A program made the position numbers and the translations under genes. Below the pieces are notes generated by a model. It was not told the DNA's origin. It made no database searches and saw nothing but the letters and a program-made list of their open reading frames with translations. From Geobacteraceae bacterium (GTDB taxonomy: Bacteria > Desulfobacterota > Desulfuromonadia > Geobacterales > Geobacteraceae), in assembly GCA_024281055.1 (NCBI GenBank), contig JAMXLF010000029.1:1-35958 (forward strand): 35,958 bases of DNA, written 5' to 3'. The stretch's first letter is position 1. Every line of letters starts with the position of its first letter. Shown piece by piece: positions 6,650 through 19,789 of this stretch.

Positions 6650-8173
6650 CTACTGGTGAAGCGAGGGCATCGGCATATAGTCGTTGTGGCAGACGTAGCA
6701 GTTCCAGATCCAGTAGTTGTCTCCCTGGAGCTGCTGAGGGATGGTGTTGTCCGCCGGGTTCGTGGAGGTATATTCGGCATGGGTGCTGTTGTGGCACCCT
6801 TCGCAATAGAGCTGCCCGTTCATCTTGGGATCGGGTGAATTGGTCATGACGGAATTGCGGTAGAGGGTGTTGCTATTTTCCTGGTGCTTCGCGTCGTGGC
6901 AGTCACCGCATCGCGGCTCCTGCAGCCACGGCTGGCGGCCGGCCGCAAGTGAGCTTGCCATCCCGGACATGTCCCCATGGCAGTCCGCGCAGCTCTTCCC
7001 GGCGTGCGACATGATGCCCCGCAGGCAATTGGTCTTCGGCCCCGGGTGGCAGTTGTAGCAGTCGGGATCCTTAGGGTCGGCGCTGACATTAACCTTGTCC
7101 TTGTGAAAGCCGTGCATCGCCAGGGAAAGGTTCTTGATACCCGGCTTGCCGGGAAGCCCGAGGGCATTGTCGGCATGGCATTCGGCACAGAGGTGAAGGA
7201 CGCCCCTGGCTCGGTCGGCCACCAGTGTCGTGCCACTGTTCTTGTCGTGGGCCTGGAGGATATTGAGAAACGGATTGGCGGTGCCGTGGCAGTTGCTGCA
7301 GTTAATCTCCGAGGAAACGGGAGCCACCACGCTGGTGGTGGCAAGAACCGCACTGGTAGTGCTATCGGTAACGGTGATCGTGGCGCTGCCGAACGGGTCC
7401 CACGTCCCGTCATCGTCGTACGGGGTGAGGGGAATCCCCGTGGCAACGAAACCGAGGCCATTAGCGTCGACAGCCATGGTGCCGGCCAGGGGAGTTCCGG
7501 TGATGCCGACATTGGGCGTGGTTTTCCAGCCATACTTGGCATAGTTGTACTGCGAGGCATAGTTCCAGAAATTCGTGTGGGACGCAGAATCGGTCTTTTT
7601 CGGAAAGGAGTAGCTCACGGTGATACCGCTCGTCACGATCCCCACCCCCCTTTGTACAACCTGGACGTGAAGGGTGTTGTACGGCGGGAGGATCAGGAGA
7701 GCGGAGTAGTCGTCCTGCATGCAGTGCATCCCGAGGTCGTTCCAGGCGAGAATTACGTAATCCATAGACGCGGCGGGTATCATCTGTGAGGGGGGAAGGT
7801 TGGTGTAGTCCACGTAGGGTGCATGGGCGGTGGTCAGTGCCCAGTCGACGCGGGTAATTGCCCCGAAACTGACGGTGCAGACCCGGGAGGTCGTCTCGTA
7901 GCCGGTCGCCGACGCGGTAAGGGTGTATCGGCCGGAAGGCCGCGATAGAGTGAATGTGCCACTGGCGTCCGTGGTGATCGATGCGGAGCCATCGCTAATG
8001 GTAACGCCTGCCAAGGGTTTGCCGGTGTTGATATCCTTTGCCACCCCAGTGATGGCACCGGCCCCGGTTGCCAAGAAGACACCGCCGCCGTCACCGCCAC
8101 AGCCGGACATACCAGCTATAAGCAGAGCCAGGAGAATCCCCCGCGATATTGTAGCCCAGCCGATTACGCGCAT
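6650..8173 (-). CDS. Seven-haem c-type cytochrome lipoprotein with carboxypeptidase-regulatory-like domain
   Basis: The product has 507 residues. A lipoprotein signal ends in AGMSGC (about residue 23), followed by a Gly-rich linker. A carboxypeptidase-regulatory-like beta sandwich follows (about 40-115, GVAKDINTGKPLAGVTISDG), then a middle region without a known domain. Seven CXXCH haem sites lie in the C-terminal 40%: CSNCH, CAECH, CYNCH, CADCH, CGDCH, CEGCH, CYVCH, with further His residues available as second axial ligands. It probably acts as a periplasmic or outer-membrane electron carrier in extracellular or metal respiration. GTG at 8179 is also in frame, but ATG at 8173 has GGAGG at the right distance. 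It is transcribed alone. Confidence 0.92.
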   Translation of the reverse strand: MRVIGWATISRGILLALLIAGMSGCGGDGGGVFLATGAGAITGVAKDINTGKPLAGVTISDGSASITTDASGTFTLSRPSGRYTLTASATGYETTSRVCTVSFGAITRVDWALTTAHAPYVDYTNLPPSQMIPAASMDYVILAWNDLGMHCMQDDYSALLILPPYNTLHVQVVQRGVGIVTSGITVSYSFPKKTDSASHTNFWNYASQYNYAKYGWKTTPNVGITGTPLAGTMAVDANGLGFVATGIPLTPYDDDGTWDPFGSATITVTDSTTSAVLATTSVVAPVSSEINCSNCHGTANPFLNILQAHDKNSGTTLVADRARGVLHLCAECHADNALGLPGKPGIKNLSLAMHGFHKDKVNVSADPKDPDCYNCHPGPKTNCLRGIMSHAGKSCADCHGDMSGMASSLAAGRQPWLQEPRCGDCHDAKHQENSNTLYRNSVMTNSPDPKMNGQLYCEGCHNSTHAEYTSTNPADNTIPQQLQGDNYWIWNCYVCHNDYMPMPSLHQ

Positions 8174-8252
8174 ACACACTCCTCCCAGTCGATTGCTCCC
8201 CGTATTCCGGTGAAAGCCGGCTTCTCATGAAAGCAGATGATATTTTCATAAG

Positions 8253-14498: not shown

Positions 14499-14538
14499 AA
14501 AAAAATGCCCGGCTTTAGGAGGGATAAACAAGCCGGGC
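14499..14538 (-). terminator. Terminator of the L,D-transpeptidase / Lpp-like operon
   Basis: Read on the minus strand: GCCCGGCTT, 14-nt loop, AAGCCGGGC, then a T-run (14499-14505). It lies about 105 nt past the stop of the last gene of the operon. Confidence 0.75.
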
Positions 14539-14642: not shown

Positions 14643-15575
14643 CTATGGCCGTATCTCGACAACCGTCCCATTGGGCACCGTCTTTGCGATTTCCTCTATT
14701 TCTTCGTCCGTTACGGCAATGCACCCTTTCGTCCAGTCAACCTGTGCGTGAGAGTCGCCAACCTGCGTGAAACCATTTTTAAGCCCGTGGATCATGATGT
14801 TTCCGCCCGGTAAAACACCCAGTTCTCTTGCCCGTTTTTTGTCCCTCTCATTTGGATAGGAAATGTGAAGAGACAGATGATAGCGGCTGTCCTTGTTTCT
14901 TGAATCGATGCAGTAGGTTCCCTCCGGGGTCTTGTTATCGCCCTGCCTCTCTTTGGGGCCGTTCGGATTTCCCCCCAGGGCTATCCTGTAGGTCTTGAGC
15001 ACCTCACCCTTTGAGAGCAACATCAGGCGCCGTTCTTTTTTTTCTATCAGAATCCTGTCTACCGGTCCCTTCTGGGTTGCCAGGGCAAAAACCCTCTGTT
15101 CGAGCGCTCTTATCTTTTCCTGCAGGGCACCAATCTCGCCCTCCCGGCTTCCAATCTCTTGCCGGAGAGCCTCGATTTGTGTCTGCTGCGTGGCAATCGT
15201 CTTATCCTTGAGAGCGACATTATTGATGTAGAATATCATCATCTCGCTGTCCTGCCTGTATCCGCTCCCCGGGTAATCCTTTAGGAGTTTCTGAAAACAT
15301 TCCAGGGATTTCTGATAATCCTTCTGCTCATTCTTCGGATAGGCATAAATAATACCCATCTCGAAGAGAACCTTGTCTGCCGTCGCGGGATATTTCCCGA
15401 TAATCTCCTCGTATTTGTTCAGAGAGGCGTTGTAGTTTCCCTTGTAAAACAAATCATTCGCCTCTTCGAAGGTTGACTTGACCTTGAAGCCACTGCATCC
15501 GCATATCAGAATCGGCGCCATCATGATGCAGATAACGAAAAGATGTGCACCCCTGCTGCTTTGTTTTCCAGCCAT
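14643..15575 (-). CDS. Lipoprotein L,D-transpeptidase with TPR and coiled coil (YkuD domain)
   Basis: The product has 310 residues. A lipoprotein signal ends at Cys27 (ILICGC). A tetratricopeptide-like helical region follows (about 35-110, ANDLFYKGNYNASLNKYEEI), then a coiled coil (about 125-170) and a C-terminal YkuD catalytic domain (about 172-309) with His263 (MIHGLKNG) and nucleophile Cys285 (WTKGCIAV). YkuD enzymes make 3-3 peptidoglycan cross-links or attach lipoproteins to peptidoglycan in the periplasm. GAGG precedes the ATG. It is the third gene behind the tandem riboswitches, 141 nt after the Lpp-like gene. The TPR/coiled coil suggests a partner-binding arm. Confidence 0.9.
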   Translation of the reverse strand: MAGKQSSRGAHLFVICIMMAPILICGCSGFKVKSTFEEANDLFYKGNYNASLNKYEEIIGKYPATADKVLFEMGIIYAYPKNEQKDYQKSLECFQKLLKDYPGSGYRQDSEMMIFYINNVALKDKTIATQQTQIEALRQEIGSREGEIGALQEKIRALEQRVFALATQKGPVDRILIEKKERRLMLLSKGEVLKTYRIALGGNPNGPKERQGDNKTPEGTYCIDSRNKDSRYHLSLHISYPNERDKKRARELGVLPGGNIMIHGLKNGFTQVGDSHAQVDWTKGCIAVTDEEIEEIAKTVPNGTVVEIRP

Positions 15576-15716
15576 ATATACCCTCGCCCCCTGGCAGAAG
15601 AATCAGGAATATCTTGTGCTGAGAGCCTGACATCCTGGCATGACAAGCAAATGATGGATAGTGAAGCGGCAGAGCCTCAAGACCCTGCCACTCCAGTATC
15701 CGGAGCTCCCAACGGC

Positions 15717-15998
15717 TTATTTCCTCATCGATTTCTGGAAAGCGGCGTCAGCCTTTGCCGCCTTTTCATCGGCGATTCTTTCCCTCTCCGCTGCCTGTTT
15801 TTCAGCTTCGTCGGCGCGGGCTTTGGCCGCATTGGCGTCCGCCTTGGCAGCTTGCGCATCCTGCAACGCCTGATCGGCTTTCGCATCAATCAGTTTTTGC
15901 TGCGCCTGCACTTTCTCGAGATCACCGGATGTTGCACAACCAGCCAACGCACTACCAAGAACAAGCATCATCGAAATCGCCAAAAGATTTGTTCGCAT
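15717..15998 (-). CDS. Lpp-like alanine-rich coiled-coil lipoprotein
   Basis: The product has 93 residues. A signal peptide with lipobox LAGC gives a mature protein starting at Cys21. The rest is one continuous Ala/Lys/Asp/Glu helix with a heptad pattern (KADANAAKARADEAEKQAA), ending QKSMRK. The layout is lipidated N-terminus, trimer-type alanine-rich coiled coil and C-terminal Arg-Lys, that of Braun's lipoprotein, whose terminal Lys is joined to peptidoglycan by YkuD L,D-transpeptidases. It lies between two such enzymes in one operon, which supports that role by context; no experiment is implied. ATG at 15998 has AAAGGAGG; an upstream GTG (16070) has its ribosome site too close. Confidence 0.85.
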   Translation of the reverse strand: MRTNLLAISMMLVLGSALAGCATSGDLEKVQAQQKLIDAKADQALQDAQAAKADANAAKARADEAEKQAAERERIADEKAAKADAAFQKSMRK

Positions 15999-16092
15999 CT
16001 CTACTACCTCCTTTGTGTTCGGTTTATTTTGTATGGGAATTACCGAGAGACGTTTCTTCGCTCCCGTCACCTCCTTTCTGTTTGGTTTGCCT

Positions 16093-17412
16093 CTATATCT
16101 TCTTGACCGGATCGATCACGATGCCCTCTATTTCCAGATCGATTTTCAGGCGTTTGACCGCATCCCTGGCTTCGCCGACATCTCTGAAAGGACCGGCGAT
16201 GACGCGGTAGCCATCGTTCTTCGACTTCGACACCACCCGTGCCGGGATTGGCGGCCCCTGGTGATTGATGATGGCGGCCATCCTCCGGGCATCGATCTCG
16301 TCACGCACATCGGCTGCCAGGACATACCAGGCGTCCATTTTCAGCTCCGGAATTTCCGGTCTGCCGTACAATTTGTCCGGGTGCTCGACTTCTATGGTTT
16401 CCGCAGCATCTTTTTCGGTTCCCTGACTCATCTCTACGATGGGAACGGGAATCCCCCGGGCCTCGACCTGCACTTCCCTGACTTTTTTCCAGTCGAGCGT
16501 GCGCCCCGATTTCTTTTCGATAACCCTCAATTTTGCGTATGCCTTCTCCAGCTCGACAGCGCCCGCGCCCGGGTCTTCCAGGGGCGTATGGGCTTCCAGG
16601 TAGAGTACGCCATTGCGTTGACCTACGAGATACGGCTGGTTGACGATGACCACGGGTGTATTGACGGGCGTGTCGTTGTAGAGCAGCTTCACGTTTTCCG
16701 GATAGAGCCTCATGCAGCCATTGGTTGCCTTAAGGCCGATGCTGGCCGGTTTGTTGGTGCCATGGATCAGATAACCCGACTTGCTCAAATAGAGCGCGTA
16801 TTCCCCCAGGGGATTCTCAGGTCCCGGCGGAACTTCCGCGGGGAGAATATCTCCCTTTTTTCGGTGGTCCGCGGCAATGGAAGCGGGCACATGCCAAGTC
16901 GGCAAGGCTGTCTTGCGCGCCACGCGCATTTGCCCCATGGGCGAAGGGCGCTCTTTGGTCCCGACACCGACCGGGTAGGTCGACACCACCAGAGACTTGC
17001 CGTCCCCCTTGAACTCGAAGAGCCTCATGGTGGCCAGGTTGATCACGATGCCTTTTCTGGGAGCGTCCGGGAGGATGAAACTCAGGGGCAACACGATACG
17101 GTCTCCGGCCTCGGGCACCCACACATCCACCCCGGGATTGGCCGCACTGACGGCATTGATCCCCAGGCTGAAGTGTCGTGCGATATCCGGAAGCGTATCC
17201 CCCTTTTCAAGCCTGACGGTCGCCAGCCGGCCTATGACGTCATCTCCCTTTTCGACCGGGAACTGATTTCGTTCGATCTCCTTTTCGGGATGGCCCTGGA
17301 AAAGCCAGACACTTCTCGTAGCGGCACATCCGTTGAGAACCAGGATTGATAGACAGAGGGCCGCAAGACGAAGCCAACTGGACAAGAGTGACGGGTCAAC
17401 GATTCGGCGCAT
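16093..17412 (-). CDS. Lipoprotein L,D-transpeptidase with LysM-like and SPOR-like domains
   Basis: The product has 439 residues. A lipoprotein signal ends at Cys29 (LVLNGC). A LysM-like peptidoglycan-binding segment follows (about 63-110, VRLEKGDTLPDIARHFSLGINAVSAANP in part), then the YkuD domain (about 120-255) with His217 (YLIHGTNK) and Cys233 (ATNGCMRL), and a C-terminal SPOR-like repeat (about 365-435, DAWYVLAADV... GYRVIAGPF). It would act in the periplasm on peptidoglycan, as ErfK/YbiS-type enzymes do when attaching Lpp. It is the first gene after two tandem riboswitches. The ATG follows an in-frame stop directly and has only a distant AAAGG, so translation initiation may be weak. Confidence 0.92.
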   Translation of the reverse strand: MRRIVDPSLLSSWLRLAALCLSILVLNGCAATRSVWLFQGHPEKEIERNQFPVEKGDDVIGRLATVRLEKGDTLPDIARHFSLGINAVSAANPGVDVWVPEAGDRIVLPLSFILPDAPRKGIVINLATMRLFEFKGDGKSLVVSTYPVGVGTKERPSPMGQMRVARKTALPTWHVPASIAADHRKKGDILPAEVPPGPENPLGEYALYLSKSGYLIHGTNKPASIGLKATNGCMRLYPENVKLLYNDTPVNTPVVIVNQPYLVGQRNGVLYLEAHTPLEDPGAGAVELEKAYAKLRVIEKKSGRTLDWKKVREVQVEARGIPVPIVEMSQGTEKDAAETIEVEHPDKLYGRPEIPELKMDAWYVLAADVRDEIDARRMAAIINHQGPPIPARVVSKSKNDGYRVIAGPFRDVGEARDAVKRLKIDLEIEGIVIDPVKKI

Positions 17413-17446: not shown

Positions 17447-17552
17447 ATAAAAAGCCGGGACCGAAAATCGTGTGATATTTCGGCAACCCGGCTGTCTCAG
17501 TGAGACCCTGTAGGCTTTCCGCCCCATCCTCGCGGATGGTTGAGTATTATCG
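17447..17552 (-). promoter_or_regulatory. GEMM-I cyclic-dinucleotide riboswitch, promoter-distal copy of a tandem (predicted GEMM-Ib)
   Basis: Minus-strand RNA: a P2 stem capped by a GCGA tetraloop (ATCC-GCGA-GGAT), the signature GGGGCGGAAAGCC, a P3 stem GGGTCTCACTGAGAC, then AGCCGGGTTGCCG, all in GEMM-I order. Aligned to the Vibrio Vc2 aptamer, the base at Vc2 position 20 is A (17545), and the 21-46 pair is C-G in place of G-C. A20 marks the cGAMP-preferring GEMM-Ib subtype. The 3' part can instead form a terminator (GCCGGG/CCCGGC then TTTTTATTTTT), so ligand binding should allow read-through. It lies 35 nt before the transpeptidase start. Confidence 0.9.
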
Positions 17553-17584
17553 TGTACCACTAACCAGTTGTAATGATTTGACAA

Positions 17585-17690
17585 CAAAAAAGCCGGGACC
17601 GAAAATCGTGTGATATTTCGGCAACCCGGCTGTCTCAGTAAGACCCTGTAGGCTTTCCGCCCCATTCTCGCGAATGGTTGAGTATTATCG
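17585..17690 (-). promoter_or_regulatory. GEMM-I cyclic-dinucleotide riboswitch, promoter-proximal copy of a tandem (predicted GEMM-Ib)
   Basis: This is nearly identical to the downstream copy. Differences are mainly compensatory: P2 is ATTC-GCGA-GAAT here and ATCC-GCGA-GGAT there, supporting a conserved RNA structure. Position 20 is again A (17683) and the 21-46 pair C-G. It has its own terminator (CCCGGC followed by TTTTTT at 17585-17590). Two complete aptamer-terminator units in series would give a steeper response than one, because a transcript must pass both terminators. Confidence 0.9.
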
Positions 17691-17718
17691 TCTATCCTTC
17701 AATCAATTATTGGTTTGC

Positions 17719-17746
17719 ATTGTACATCTCTACGAGGGTTTGTCAA
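17719..17746 (-). promoter_or_regulatory. Sigma-70 promoter of the riboswitch operon
   Basis: Minus strand: TTGACA (17741-17746), 16 bp, TACAAT (17719-17724). The start site would be about 20 nt before the first aptamer. It is the only promoter I see in front of the tandem riboswitches and the three-gene operon. Confidence 0.8.
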
Positions 17747-18512: not shown

Positions 18513-18965
18513 ATGATCATACTGCAGGCTGAAACGGAAATTGCGGCACCGGCGGAACGGATATGGGAGCTCCTGGCCGACGGGGCGTCCTATGCCCACT
18601 GGAACCCCATGCTGCAGTGGGGTGCCGGCACCTTGACGGCCGGAAGCCGGCTGGAACTGACGGTTACCCTGCCCCACATGCCCCCATTCGTCCAGCATCC
18701 CGTGCTCCTTGCCCTCGAACCGCAGAAGGAGCTCAGCTGGCGCCACCGCCTGCCGGTTCCCGGCCTGCTGAGCTGGACGCAGTCGATCACCCTGGAGCAG
18801 CTCTCCCCCGAGGTACGGCGGGTAACCCAACGGGTTTCCCTCGGCGGGCTGCTGGCATCCCTGTACAAGTTCGCCCTCGGCAGAATGATCCAGCACGGGC
18901 TTGACGAGTCGAACGCGGCACTGCAGCGATTGGCACAGAAGGAGTTTCCGTGCCACCGCTGCTGA
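18513..18965 (+). CDS. SRPBCC-family (polyketide cyclase / START-like) protein
   Basis: The product has 150 residues. The pattern TEIAAPAERIWELLADGASY followed by HWNPML is the typical opening of Polyketide_cyc2/SRPBCC proteins, which form a helix-grip fold with a deep hydrophobic ligand cavity. The remaining strands and the long C-terminal helix (MIQHGLDESNAALQRLAQ) also fit. The ligand is unknown. GAGGGACGG precedes the ATG. Its end overlaps the start of the next gene by 16 nt, so both are translated together. Confidence 0.82.
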   Translation: MIILQAETEIAAPAERIWELLADGASYAHWNPMLQWGAGTLTAGSRLELTVTLPHMPPFVQHPVLLALEPQKELSWRHRLPVPGLLSWTQSITLEQLSPEVRRVTQRVSLGGLLASLYKFALGRMIQHGLDESNAALQRLAQKEFPCHRC

Positions 18966-19789
18966 CGACTGCCAAGCCATCGGCCTTCCCCTTGTGGAGA
19001 CTGCTGCTCCTCGCCGGTTTCCTCCCCGTTCTCCTGGGCATCCCTTCCCGCGGAAAAGCCGAGACGGAGAAGATCACATCGCTCTGCTCCATTCACTATC
19101 CGAGCGACGACCGCATCCCGTGGGAATGCCGCGAGCTGAAATGGGGCGACACCCCGTACAGGCTTTTCGGCAAACATTGGCAGGACGTGCTCCGCTTCAA
19201 CCGGATAGACCGGCGCCATTTCCTCGGCGATGTGTCCATCAAGGTGCCGAAGCGGCTGGAGGATATCGAGAGGTTCACGCCGATGCCGCCGACCTGGCCG
19301 GAGGCCGAGGCGGAGGAGAAATTCATCGTGGTGGACCAGTCCGAGATGTTCCTGGGGGCCTATGAACACGGCAAGCTTGCCTTCTCTTCCCCCATTGCGG
19401 TCGGCAGCGAGGGACACCGGGTGCCGAACGGCGAATTCCGGATCGATGCCGTCGATCTCCGCCATGAATCGACCCTCTACAAGGTCGAGAACACAAAACG
19501 ACCCTACCCGATGCACTACGGCCTCAGGTTCTACATCCAGAAGGGGGAGGACAAGTGGATATCCTACTGGCTCCACGGCCGCGACCTGCCCGGCTACCCG
19601 GCCTCCCACGGCTGCATCGGCCTCTACGACGAGGAGATGCAGAAGAAGTACTACCACGAGCCGCGGCGCCCGATCCTCGAAGATGCGAAGAAGCTCTACG
19701 AATGGGTGCTCGGCTCCCGGCACGATCCGGGAACATTTCATAACATCAAGGGCCCCCGGGTGCTGATCATCGGCACGCCACCACTGTGA
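18950..19789 (+). CDS. Secreted L,D-transpeptidase (YkuD domain)
   Basis: The product has 279 residues, starting at a GTG with AAGGAG five bases before it. A signal peptide covers about residues 1-38. A short LysM-like segment (WGDTPYRLFGKHWQDVLRFN) follows, then the YkuD domain (about 125-275) with His209 (WLHGRDLPG) and Cys222 in SHGCIGL. It is the third L,D-transpeptidase in 5 kb and is not lipidated. It would cross-link peptidoglycan or anchor proteins to it in the periplasm. It overlaps the SRPBCC gene. Confidence 0.92.
   Translation: MPPLLTTAKPSAFPLWRLLLLAGFLPVLLGIPSRGKAETEKITSLCSIHYPSDDRIPWECRELKWGDTPYRLFGKHWQDVLRFNRIDRRHFLGDVSIKVPKRLEDIERFTPMPPTWPEAEAEEKFIVVDQSEMFLGAYEHGKLAFSSPIAVGSEGHRVPNGEFRIDAVDLRHESTLYKVENTKRPYPMHYGLRFYIQKGEDKWISYWLHGRDLPGYPASHGCIGLYDEEMQKKYYHEPRRPILEDAKKLYEWVLGSRHDPGTFHNIKGPRVLIIGTPPL

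Follow-up and report, generated by a model that had tools for sequence, protein, structure and literature searches.

How might a bacterium fasten its outer membrane to the cell wall and also let it go, and can the genes for both tasks stand under one signal? This question is raised by three neighbouring genes in a stretch of 35,958 nucleotides from a Geobacteraceae bacterium (assembly GCA_024281055.1, contig JAMXLF010000029.1, positions 1 to 35,958 of the forward strand; hereafter the window). The original prediction, made from the sequence, had read them as one transcript coding for a Braun-type lipoprotein between two L,D-transpeptidases (LD-transpeptidases), all behind cyclic-dinucleotide riboswitches. 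We analysed the locus computationally and, with moderate confidence, favour a reading as an operon for a reversible outer-membrane tether, comprising a writer, the tether and a candidate eraser, probably switched on by 3',3'-cGAMP (cyclic GMP-AMP). The earlier interpretation as a whole is partly supported. The three genes are:

16093–17412, minus strand: gene 1, an LD-transpeptidase lipoprotein of the LdtA/B/C/E lineage and the candidate attaching enzyme (439 amino acids, motif TNGCMR, C-terminal SPOR domain)
15717–15998, minus strand: gene 2, an alanine-zipper lipoprotein of the Lpp/OprI family and the candidate tether (ATG at 15998, 93 amino acids, C-terminal Arg-Lys)
14643–15575, minus strand: gene 3, a lipoprotein with BamD-like tetratricopeptide repeats (TPR), a coiled coil and a DpaA-like YkuD domain, the candidate detaching amidase (310 amino acids, motif TKGCIA)

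Gene calls and domain searches confirmed the coordinates (14643–17412, minus strand) and the gene content. As predicted, gene 1 encodes an LD-transpeptidase lipoprotein with the lipobox LNGC; profile searches gave YkuD (74.2 bits), SPOR (44.6 bits) and a LysM match below cut-off (16.2 bits). Gene 2 yields the expected mature form of 73 residues counted from the Cys, beginning with Cys-Ala and ending in SMRK, and exceeds the curated cut-offs of two families (NF040598, 80.6 bits for a cut-off of 43; PF11839, 39.2 bits for 23.1). Gene 3 combines the lipobox ICGC with a BamD/YfiO-like TPR region (31.8 bits), the coiled coil and YkuD (70.9 bits), again as had been described. Whether a lipoprotein is destined for the outer membrane is decided by Asp after the Cys. 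No Asp follows the lipobox Cys in any of the three, from which we infer that all are destined for the outer membrane.

The genes are separated by gaps of 94 and 141 nt, and two features flank the set:

17719–17746, minus strand: promoter-like site TTGACA-16-TACAAT (11 of 12 consensus bases, a match to the consensus alone)
14499–14538, minus strand: hairpin GCCCGGCTT...AAAGCCGGGC followed by a T run, 3' of gene 3, the probable operon end (read in the sequence; missed by the terminator scan)

Seven promoter-like sites were found in the stretch, versus 2.5 expected in shuffles. Since such a site lies upstream, a hairpin and T run follow gene 3, and no minus-strand terminator was listed between the three genes by the terminator scan, a single transcript is likely. 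The scan also misses the leader hairpins described below, so its intergenic negative carries little weight.

Does this arrangement recur? We compared regions around the set, 59 in genomes of the host's order (the window included) plus 80 of 87 matched named loci, and obtained 102 distinct operons after removal of copies. Both enzymes are present in 95 of these; 89 have gene 1 upstream, which bears out the predicted order, and 6 have gene 3 upstream. The remaining 7 do not have gene 1 in the stretch. Chance adjacency of the three genes was rejected on this conserved order across distinct operons. Among 141 genomes of the order, an over-cut-off Lpp is accompanied by a full-length gene 3 in 57 of 57, and 82 genomes have neither. 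These genomes are mutually related, so that the Fisher value for the association does not give a true probability. Gene 3 occurs in 59 of these genomes, the two beyond the 57 having a truncated or frameshifted Lpp adjoining it.

The C-terminal Lys, on whose conservation the original prediction had staked itself, ends 94 of the 94 complete Lpp copies (88 from the automatic search and 6 from inspection; the automatic call at L171 was spurious and was replaced by a hand reading). It is also terminal at L062 and L225, where the Lpp end alone is present. Of the other operons, one has a frameshifted Lpp (L142) and three lie at contig ends (L164, L187, L233). Two (L218, L231) have gene 3 and enough flank but no Lpp match, a finding that counts against the tether reading. 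In 92 of the 94 copies the mature Lpp is 73 residues long or longer by whole steps of seven (73, 80, 87, 94, 101 or 108 residues), as expected if heptads of the coil are gained and lost; the length for L149 is 94 and not 101, the automatic lipobox rule starting seven residues early there. Gene 2 may be a Braun-type tether, for which a covalent link to peptidoglycan is predicted. Two weak, below-cut-off matches to the Lpp/OprI family also occur in the host's own genome (G000:C82:3883–4044, 30.9 bits; C90:58859–59140, 27.2 bits).

Which enzyme would make the link? The motif GC-x-R of transpeptidases, versus GC-x-A of DpaA, is a published discriminator (PMC8263019, PMC10434034; these and the other papers cited are drawn on in excerpt). 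GC-x-R is present in 91 of 95 gene-1 copies; three lack it in the reading frame used and one gave a spurious motif (L208, with a stop in frame, was omitted from the gene-1 alignment). The gene-1 YkuD family profile scored E. coli LdtA at 131, LdtB at 124, LdtE at 121, LdtC at 107, LdtD at 22 and DpaA at 2 bits. The best NCBIfam match of gene 1 is LdtE with 176.2 of 480 bits, below the equivalog cut-off. By sequence, gene 1 is a lineage relative of LdtA/B/C/E and no LdtE equivalog. SPOR domains serve septal placement, and the domain was present in all 31 gene-1 copies scanned, the window's included.

Gene 1 could instead be a 3-3 cross-linker in the role of LdtE or LdtPae1, with the lipoprotein as a free, non-covalent coiled-coil spacer and the operon strengthening the wall for surface life. 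This agrees with the best family match being LdtE and with the septal placement that SPOR suggests. Two points also tell against attachment as such: gene 1 falls between the Lpp-attaching LdtA/B/C and the cross-linking LdtE, and the lineage of an Ldt neither separates Lpp-attaching from cross-linking enzymes nor predicts activity (PMC10434034). Attachment by gene 1 is thus suggested by its neighbour gene, not by lineage. However, the Lys end of the lipoprotein is kept throughout while the coil length varies, and a linked DpaA-like gene is most sensible with an attached protein or another substrate linked to diaminopimelate (Dap). We regard the cross-linking explanation as improbable and retain gene 1 as the candidate attaching enzyme.

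The window contains a third YkuD gene, at 18950–19789 on the plus strand (279 amino acids), whose motif SHGCIGL is neither GC-x-R nor GC-x-A. Its protein shares 50% identity with a second YkuD protein, encoded on contig C9 of the host genome.

Gene 3 had been counted as a second candidate enzyme of attachment. This part of the original prediction was not supported, since gene 3 is DpaA-like by motif, by profile and by its best solved sequence relative. One mark of DpaA is Ala or Asn two residues past the catalytic Cys, and gene 3 has Ala there in 100 of 102 copies (in the other two, the reading frame used shows no such motif). The gene-3 family profile gave E. coli DpaA 51 bits, LdtC 5.3, LdtA 4.7, LdtB 2.8 and LdtE -0.3 bits (LdtD unreported). 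Among solved structures, the best sequence match is E. coli DpaA (8IKR; 2.2e-9 for gene 3 alone, 3.9e-13 as a profile). Lys83, needed for DpaA activity (PMC10653827), is kept in 100 of 100 gene-3 relatives, Gln86 in 91, and Tyr109 in 89 with Phe in a further 9. Met133 of DpaA, at the position of the Trp of the D-Ala pocket in LD-carboxypeptidases (PMC10653827), is likewise found in all 100.

Several observations weigh against a detaching role. Tyr131 of DpaA is replaced in the 100 relatives by Asp (77) and Asn (22), and a Tyr131-to-Ala mutant of DpaA has 4% of its activity left (PMC10653827). Lys130 of the DpaA loop L3 is Gly in 99 of the 100, Arg108 is conserved in just 59, and the loop leading to the catalytic Cys has 14 extra residues relative to DpaA. 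With 46.6 of 365 bits, gene 3 stays below the cut-off of the DpaA equivalog NF040599; 43 of 43 aligned gene-3 copies match this family at 0.001. Moreover, DpaA (8IKR) is not among the best 50 Foldseek matches from the Protein Data Bank (PDB) listed for a gene-3 model. These comprise B. subtilis YkuD and mycobacterial and other transpeptidases, at query template-modelling (TM) scores of 0.27–0.30. This AlphaFold model of mature gene 3 (43-row alignment) has a mean predicted local distance difference test score (pLDDT) of 79.7 and a predicted TM score (pTM) of 0.48, and it is weakest at residues 231–260, around the catalytic Cys, with block means of 47–62. Because the model is poor, the case between attachment and detachment rests on sequence.

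Gene 3 could instead be an LD-carboxypeptidase of the Csd6, Pgp2 or Bd1075 type. It would then trim tetrapeptides, the lipoprotein would be attached by gene 1 without being detached by gene 3, and the operon would remodel peptidoglycan. LD-carboxypeptidases are likewise without the transpeptidase Arg (PMC8263019). The gene-3 profile matches Pgp2 (1.9e-5), Bd1075 (7o21; 1.6e-5) and Csd6 (0.0085), the LD-carboxypeptidase family ElsL finds a weak match in 3 of 43 gene-3 copies, and DpaA Tyr131 is not kept. However, DpaA outscores these enzymes against the gene-3 profile (52 bits versus 27 for Pgp2, 27 for Bd1075 and 18.5 for Csd6), the Trp of the carboxypeptidase pocket is invariably Met, as in DpaA, and gene 3 is linked to the Lys-ended Lpp in each of the 57 genomes of the order with an over-cut-off Lpp. 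Trimming is rather unlikely in our judgement. Gene 3 appears to be DpaA-like, not DpaA proper; on the three lines of sequence evidence given above (motif, profile, closest solved structure by sequence), detachment is likelier than either trimming or attachment.

What signal would control the set? The predicted riboswitches are there, as two GEMM-I aptamers that precede the operon; both lie outside the stated segment 14643–17412. The leader contains, from 5' to 3':

17617–17693, minus strand: first GEMM-I aptamer (RF01051), with A at the position of Vc2 G20 (42.7 bits, gathering threshold 35)
17591–17631, minus strand: terminator hairpin sharing the 3' strand of the first aptamer, then a T run (-25 kcal/mol for a 59-nt piece, z -5.47)
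17479–17555, minus strand: second GEMM-I aptamer (RF01051), with A at the position of Vc2 G20 (43.3 bits, gathering threshold 35)
17453–17493, minus strand: terminator hairpin sharing the 3' strand of the second aptamer (-25 kcal/mol for a 59-nt piece, z -5.27)

None of 200 shuffles matched the stability of either hairpin, and the two 111-nt copies of aptamer plus terminator are identical to each other at 104 of 111 positions. Each terminator is predicted to form at the expense of the aptamer just before it, whose 3' strand it takes up together with the C expected to pair with the ligand. Both aptamers have A20 and all ten bases listed as contacts of 3',3'-cGAMP in PMC6274999, whose numbering we fitted to its helices with one extra base before C75; the ligand is therefore most likely 3',3'-cGAMP. 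An A20G swap in a Geobacter aptamer changed selectivity from cGAMP to cyclic di-GMP (c-di-GMP; PMC6456294). At column 16 of the alignment the consensus is A, but the two window aptamers have C. Despite this, c-di-GMP was rejected as the main ligand on A20 and the contact bases.

The arrangement of aptamer and terminator is the same as in the Geobacter pilM cGAMP switch (PMC9262584), where the 3' strand of the aptamer and the terminator are mutually exclusive and the ligand turns expression on. By this analogy, an ON switch is most likely here as well. The window leader differs from the pilM switch in having two near-identical switches in tandem, which might have an AND-like effect. Tandem GEMM-Ib switches were already known in G. 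sulfurreducens (PMC6456294).

To follow the control through the other operons, we built a search model from 30 aptamers of the host's own genome and ran it on every locus but L062 and L233 (100 of 102), counting aptamers up to 900 nt ahead of gene 1; scoring covered the operons other than the six in which gene 3 precedes gene 1. At least one aptamer is present in all 57 cases within the order that have upstream sequence (the window among them), and 39 have two. Two operons of the order were without usable upstream sequence, one at a contig end (L172, genome G092) and one without gene 1 (L062, genome G062). Position 20 is A in 97 of 102 aptamers upstream of operons and G in 3, with 2 untyped; one of the three G calls is unreliable, the first aptamer of L111 being cut by the contig end.

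Against cGAMP control as part of the system stands the finding of no aptamer at 22 of the 26 other loci that begin with gene 1 and have 500 nt or more of upstream sequence (these were not sorted by order, and some may belong to the host's). The aptamer-bearing loci of the 26 include L214 with one and L196 with two; L157, outside the 26 with 353 nt upstream, has one. Weak GEMM-like leaders precede the operon at two of the 26, L179 (823–913, 27.5 bits) and L185 (2928–3019, 30.2 bits). Their 3' half is nearly GEMM-Ib while the 5' half differs, which suggests decayed or altered switches. Because most of the other loci are without an aptamer, the protein unit is wider than its cGAMP control, which does not belong to the core.

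The operon could then be an ordinary envelope-maintenance set within a surface-contact regulon, its cGAMP control having no specific bearing on tethering. In keeping with this, the unit occurs without aptamers in other lineages, the cGAMP regulon of G. sulfurreducens otherwise comprises cytochromes, pili and hypothetical genes (PMC6456294), and the host's 4.4 Mb genome has 41 GEMM-I matches, 40 of them over cut-off. On the other side, no operon of the order with upstream sequence has lost its last aptamer, and the 16-fold response of GSU0181–0183, a set of G. sulfurreducens genes taken up below, equals that of omcAHG in strength (PMC6456294). We consider this explanation possible but unlikely. 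Among the 30 aligned aptamers of the host, position 20 is A in 21 and G in 9, the two types occurring side by side. A run of three GEMM-I aptamers lies at C26:76341–76910.

Does the host make the ligand? Its genome has 26 GGDEF matches, 20 of which were read by a strict pattern, with the Hypr serine in two (L254, L260); such domains support 3',3'-cGAMP as the ligand. The six others comprise two GGDDF domains with Ser by a looser reading (L268, L269), two with Asp and two unread. A GGDDF motif has been reported for one active cGAMP synthase, and the two GGDDF domains of the host (G000:C35:184871–185164 and C37:22251–22556) resemble this variant (PMC8835794).

Where did the unit come from? In a gene-3 tree of 80 rows, Nitrospirota are mixed with Thermodesulfobacteriota; at least two changes are forced by the starred branches and five occur on the tree, whose bootstrap is unsettled, with many forks open. 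The label 'Myxococcota' in this tree seems to stem from titles that read just 'Deltaproteobacteria'. On these sequences, transfer of the unit between phyla is likely.

The host has a second trio elsewhere in its genome (L244:2753–4910, G000:C80), with three genes within 2.2 kb. These are an LdtA/B/C/E-lineage gene with GCIR, a short DpaA-like gene with GCIA that is 55% identical to gene 3 and, encoded in the opposite orientation, an alanine-rich lipoprotein. The lipoprotein ends in QKK and scores 29.9 bits for PF11839 (cut-off 23.1) and 24.9 for NF040598, below its cut-off of 43. We surveyed this locus and 20 of 28 other matches of the short DpaA-like gene, 21 loci in all, some cut by contig ends. 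All three genes are present in 5 and neither partner in 15, and a sixth locus with an attacher has no lipoprotein. The lipoprotein ends in QKK in 5 of 5, and three of the six attachers have GC-x-H. Thus the grouping of an attacher, a Lys-ended lipoprotein and a DpaA-like gene recurs, in a minority of loci.

Taken together, a reversible tether would work as follows. High 3',3'-cGAMP would bind the two tandem aptamers and keep their 3' strands from the terminators, and read-through of the leader would allow transcription of the three lipoprotein genes. The lipid of the gene-2 product would sit in the outer membrane, its alanine-zipper coil would span the periplasm and its C-terminal Lys would be offered to peptidoglycan. 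The gene-1 enzyme, with its GC-x-R motif and SPOR domain, would join this Lys to meso-Dap, while the DpaA-like gene-3 enzyme would cut the bond between gene-2 product and wall, so that the cell would gain a tether plus a means of its turnover. Outer-membrane sorting, attachment, detachment and the ligand in the host are all predictions. A further difficulty is that an attacher and a detacher expressed together could be futile unless separated in time or place.

Tentatively, we propose that a reversible stapling module moved between phyla and was put under 3',3'-cGAMP in the order of the host, setting the number and turnover of covalent links between outer membrane and wall during mineral respiration. 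If so, the heptad steps (73 to 108 residues) would set the distance from wall to membrane in each species. Likewise, 3',3'-cGAMP, hitherto tied to extracellular electron transfer, would gain a role in the hold of the outer membrane, with probable relevance to vesiculation and to cytochromes that need to span a periplasm of set width. Lpp of the PF04728 type was found in a subset of Gammaproteobacteria only, and another purpose was suggested for DpaA-like enzymes in species without Lpp, including Deltaproteobacteria (PMC8263019). The window operon combines a DpaA-like gene with an Lpp of the PF11839 type and an enzyme of the attaching kind, which suggests an answer to what DpaA-like enzymes do in such bacteria.

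Elsewhere in the window, 6650–8179 on the minus strand codes for a protein with carboxypeptidase-regulatory-like and cytochrome c7/c3 domains.

How does the operon compare with known systems? The original prediction knew of no described system of this kind, which does not stand: control of GSU0181–0183 of G. sulfurreducens by the cGAMP synthase GacA is in print. These genes, described as 'uncharacterized lipoprotein transpeptidases', dropped 16-fold without GacA (eLife 2019, PMC6456294), and GSU0182 is listed as a murein lipoprotein in two RNA-seq tables (PMC11934962, PMC7962754). Likened by its published description, GSU0181–0183 is very probably the orthologous operon. In contrast to the reading favoured here, the excerpts of PMC6456294 describe transpeptidases only and propose no tether or detachment role. 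An account of GSU0181–0183 as tether, detachment system or Lpp was not found in the open-access literature, which leaves most subscription journals uncovered, and in a 2025 LD-transpeptidase review neither 'riboswitch' nor 'Geobacter' occurs.

E. coli Lpp with LdtA/B/C and DpaA shares with the window operon a GC-x-R attacher, a Lys-ended coiled-coil lipoprotein and a GC-x-A detacher. However, its Lpp belongs to PF04728 and the window lipoprotein to PF11839/NF040598, the window enzymes, unlike those of E. coli, are lipoproteins with SPOR or TPR domains, and the genes of E. coli K-12 are scattered. Of its six ykuD-domain genes only ldtE adjoins lpp; the two are convergent and 63 nt apart (L240:5422–6726), so that there, too, an Lpp gene lies beside an Ldt gene. 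In P. aeruginosa, LdtPae2 attaches OprI and LdtPae3, with GC-x-A, was proposed to release it, with more anchoring in biofilm (PMC10434034). The likeness lies in an alanine-zipper lipoprotein ending in Arg-Lys with an attaching and a presumed releasing enzyme; in contrast to the window, the word 'operon' is absent from that paper, and its excerpts describe no second-messenger leader. Operon control has already been published for a related species, and the new part, in bacteria that the survey of PMC8263019 places among those without Lpp, is the proposed set for attachment, tether and detachment in one operon under 3',3'-cGAMP.

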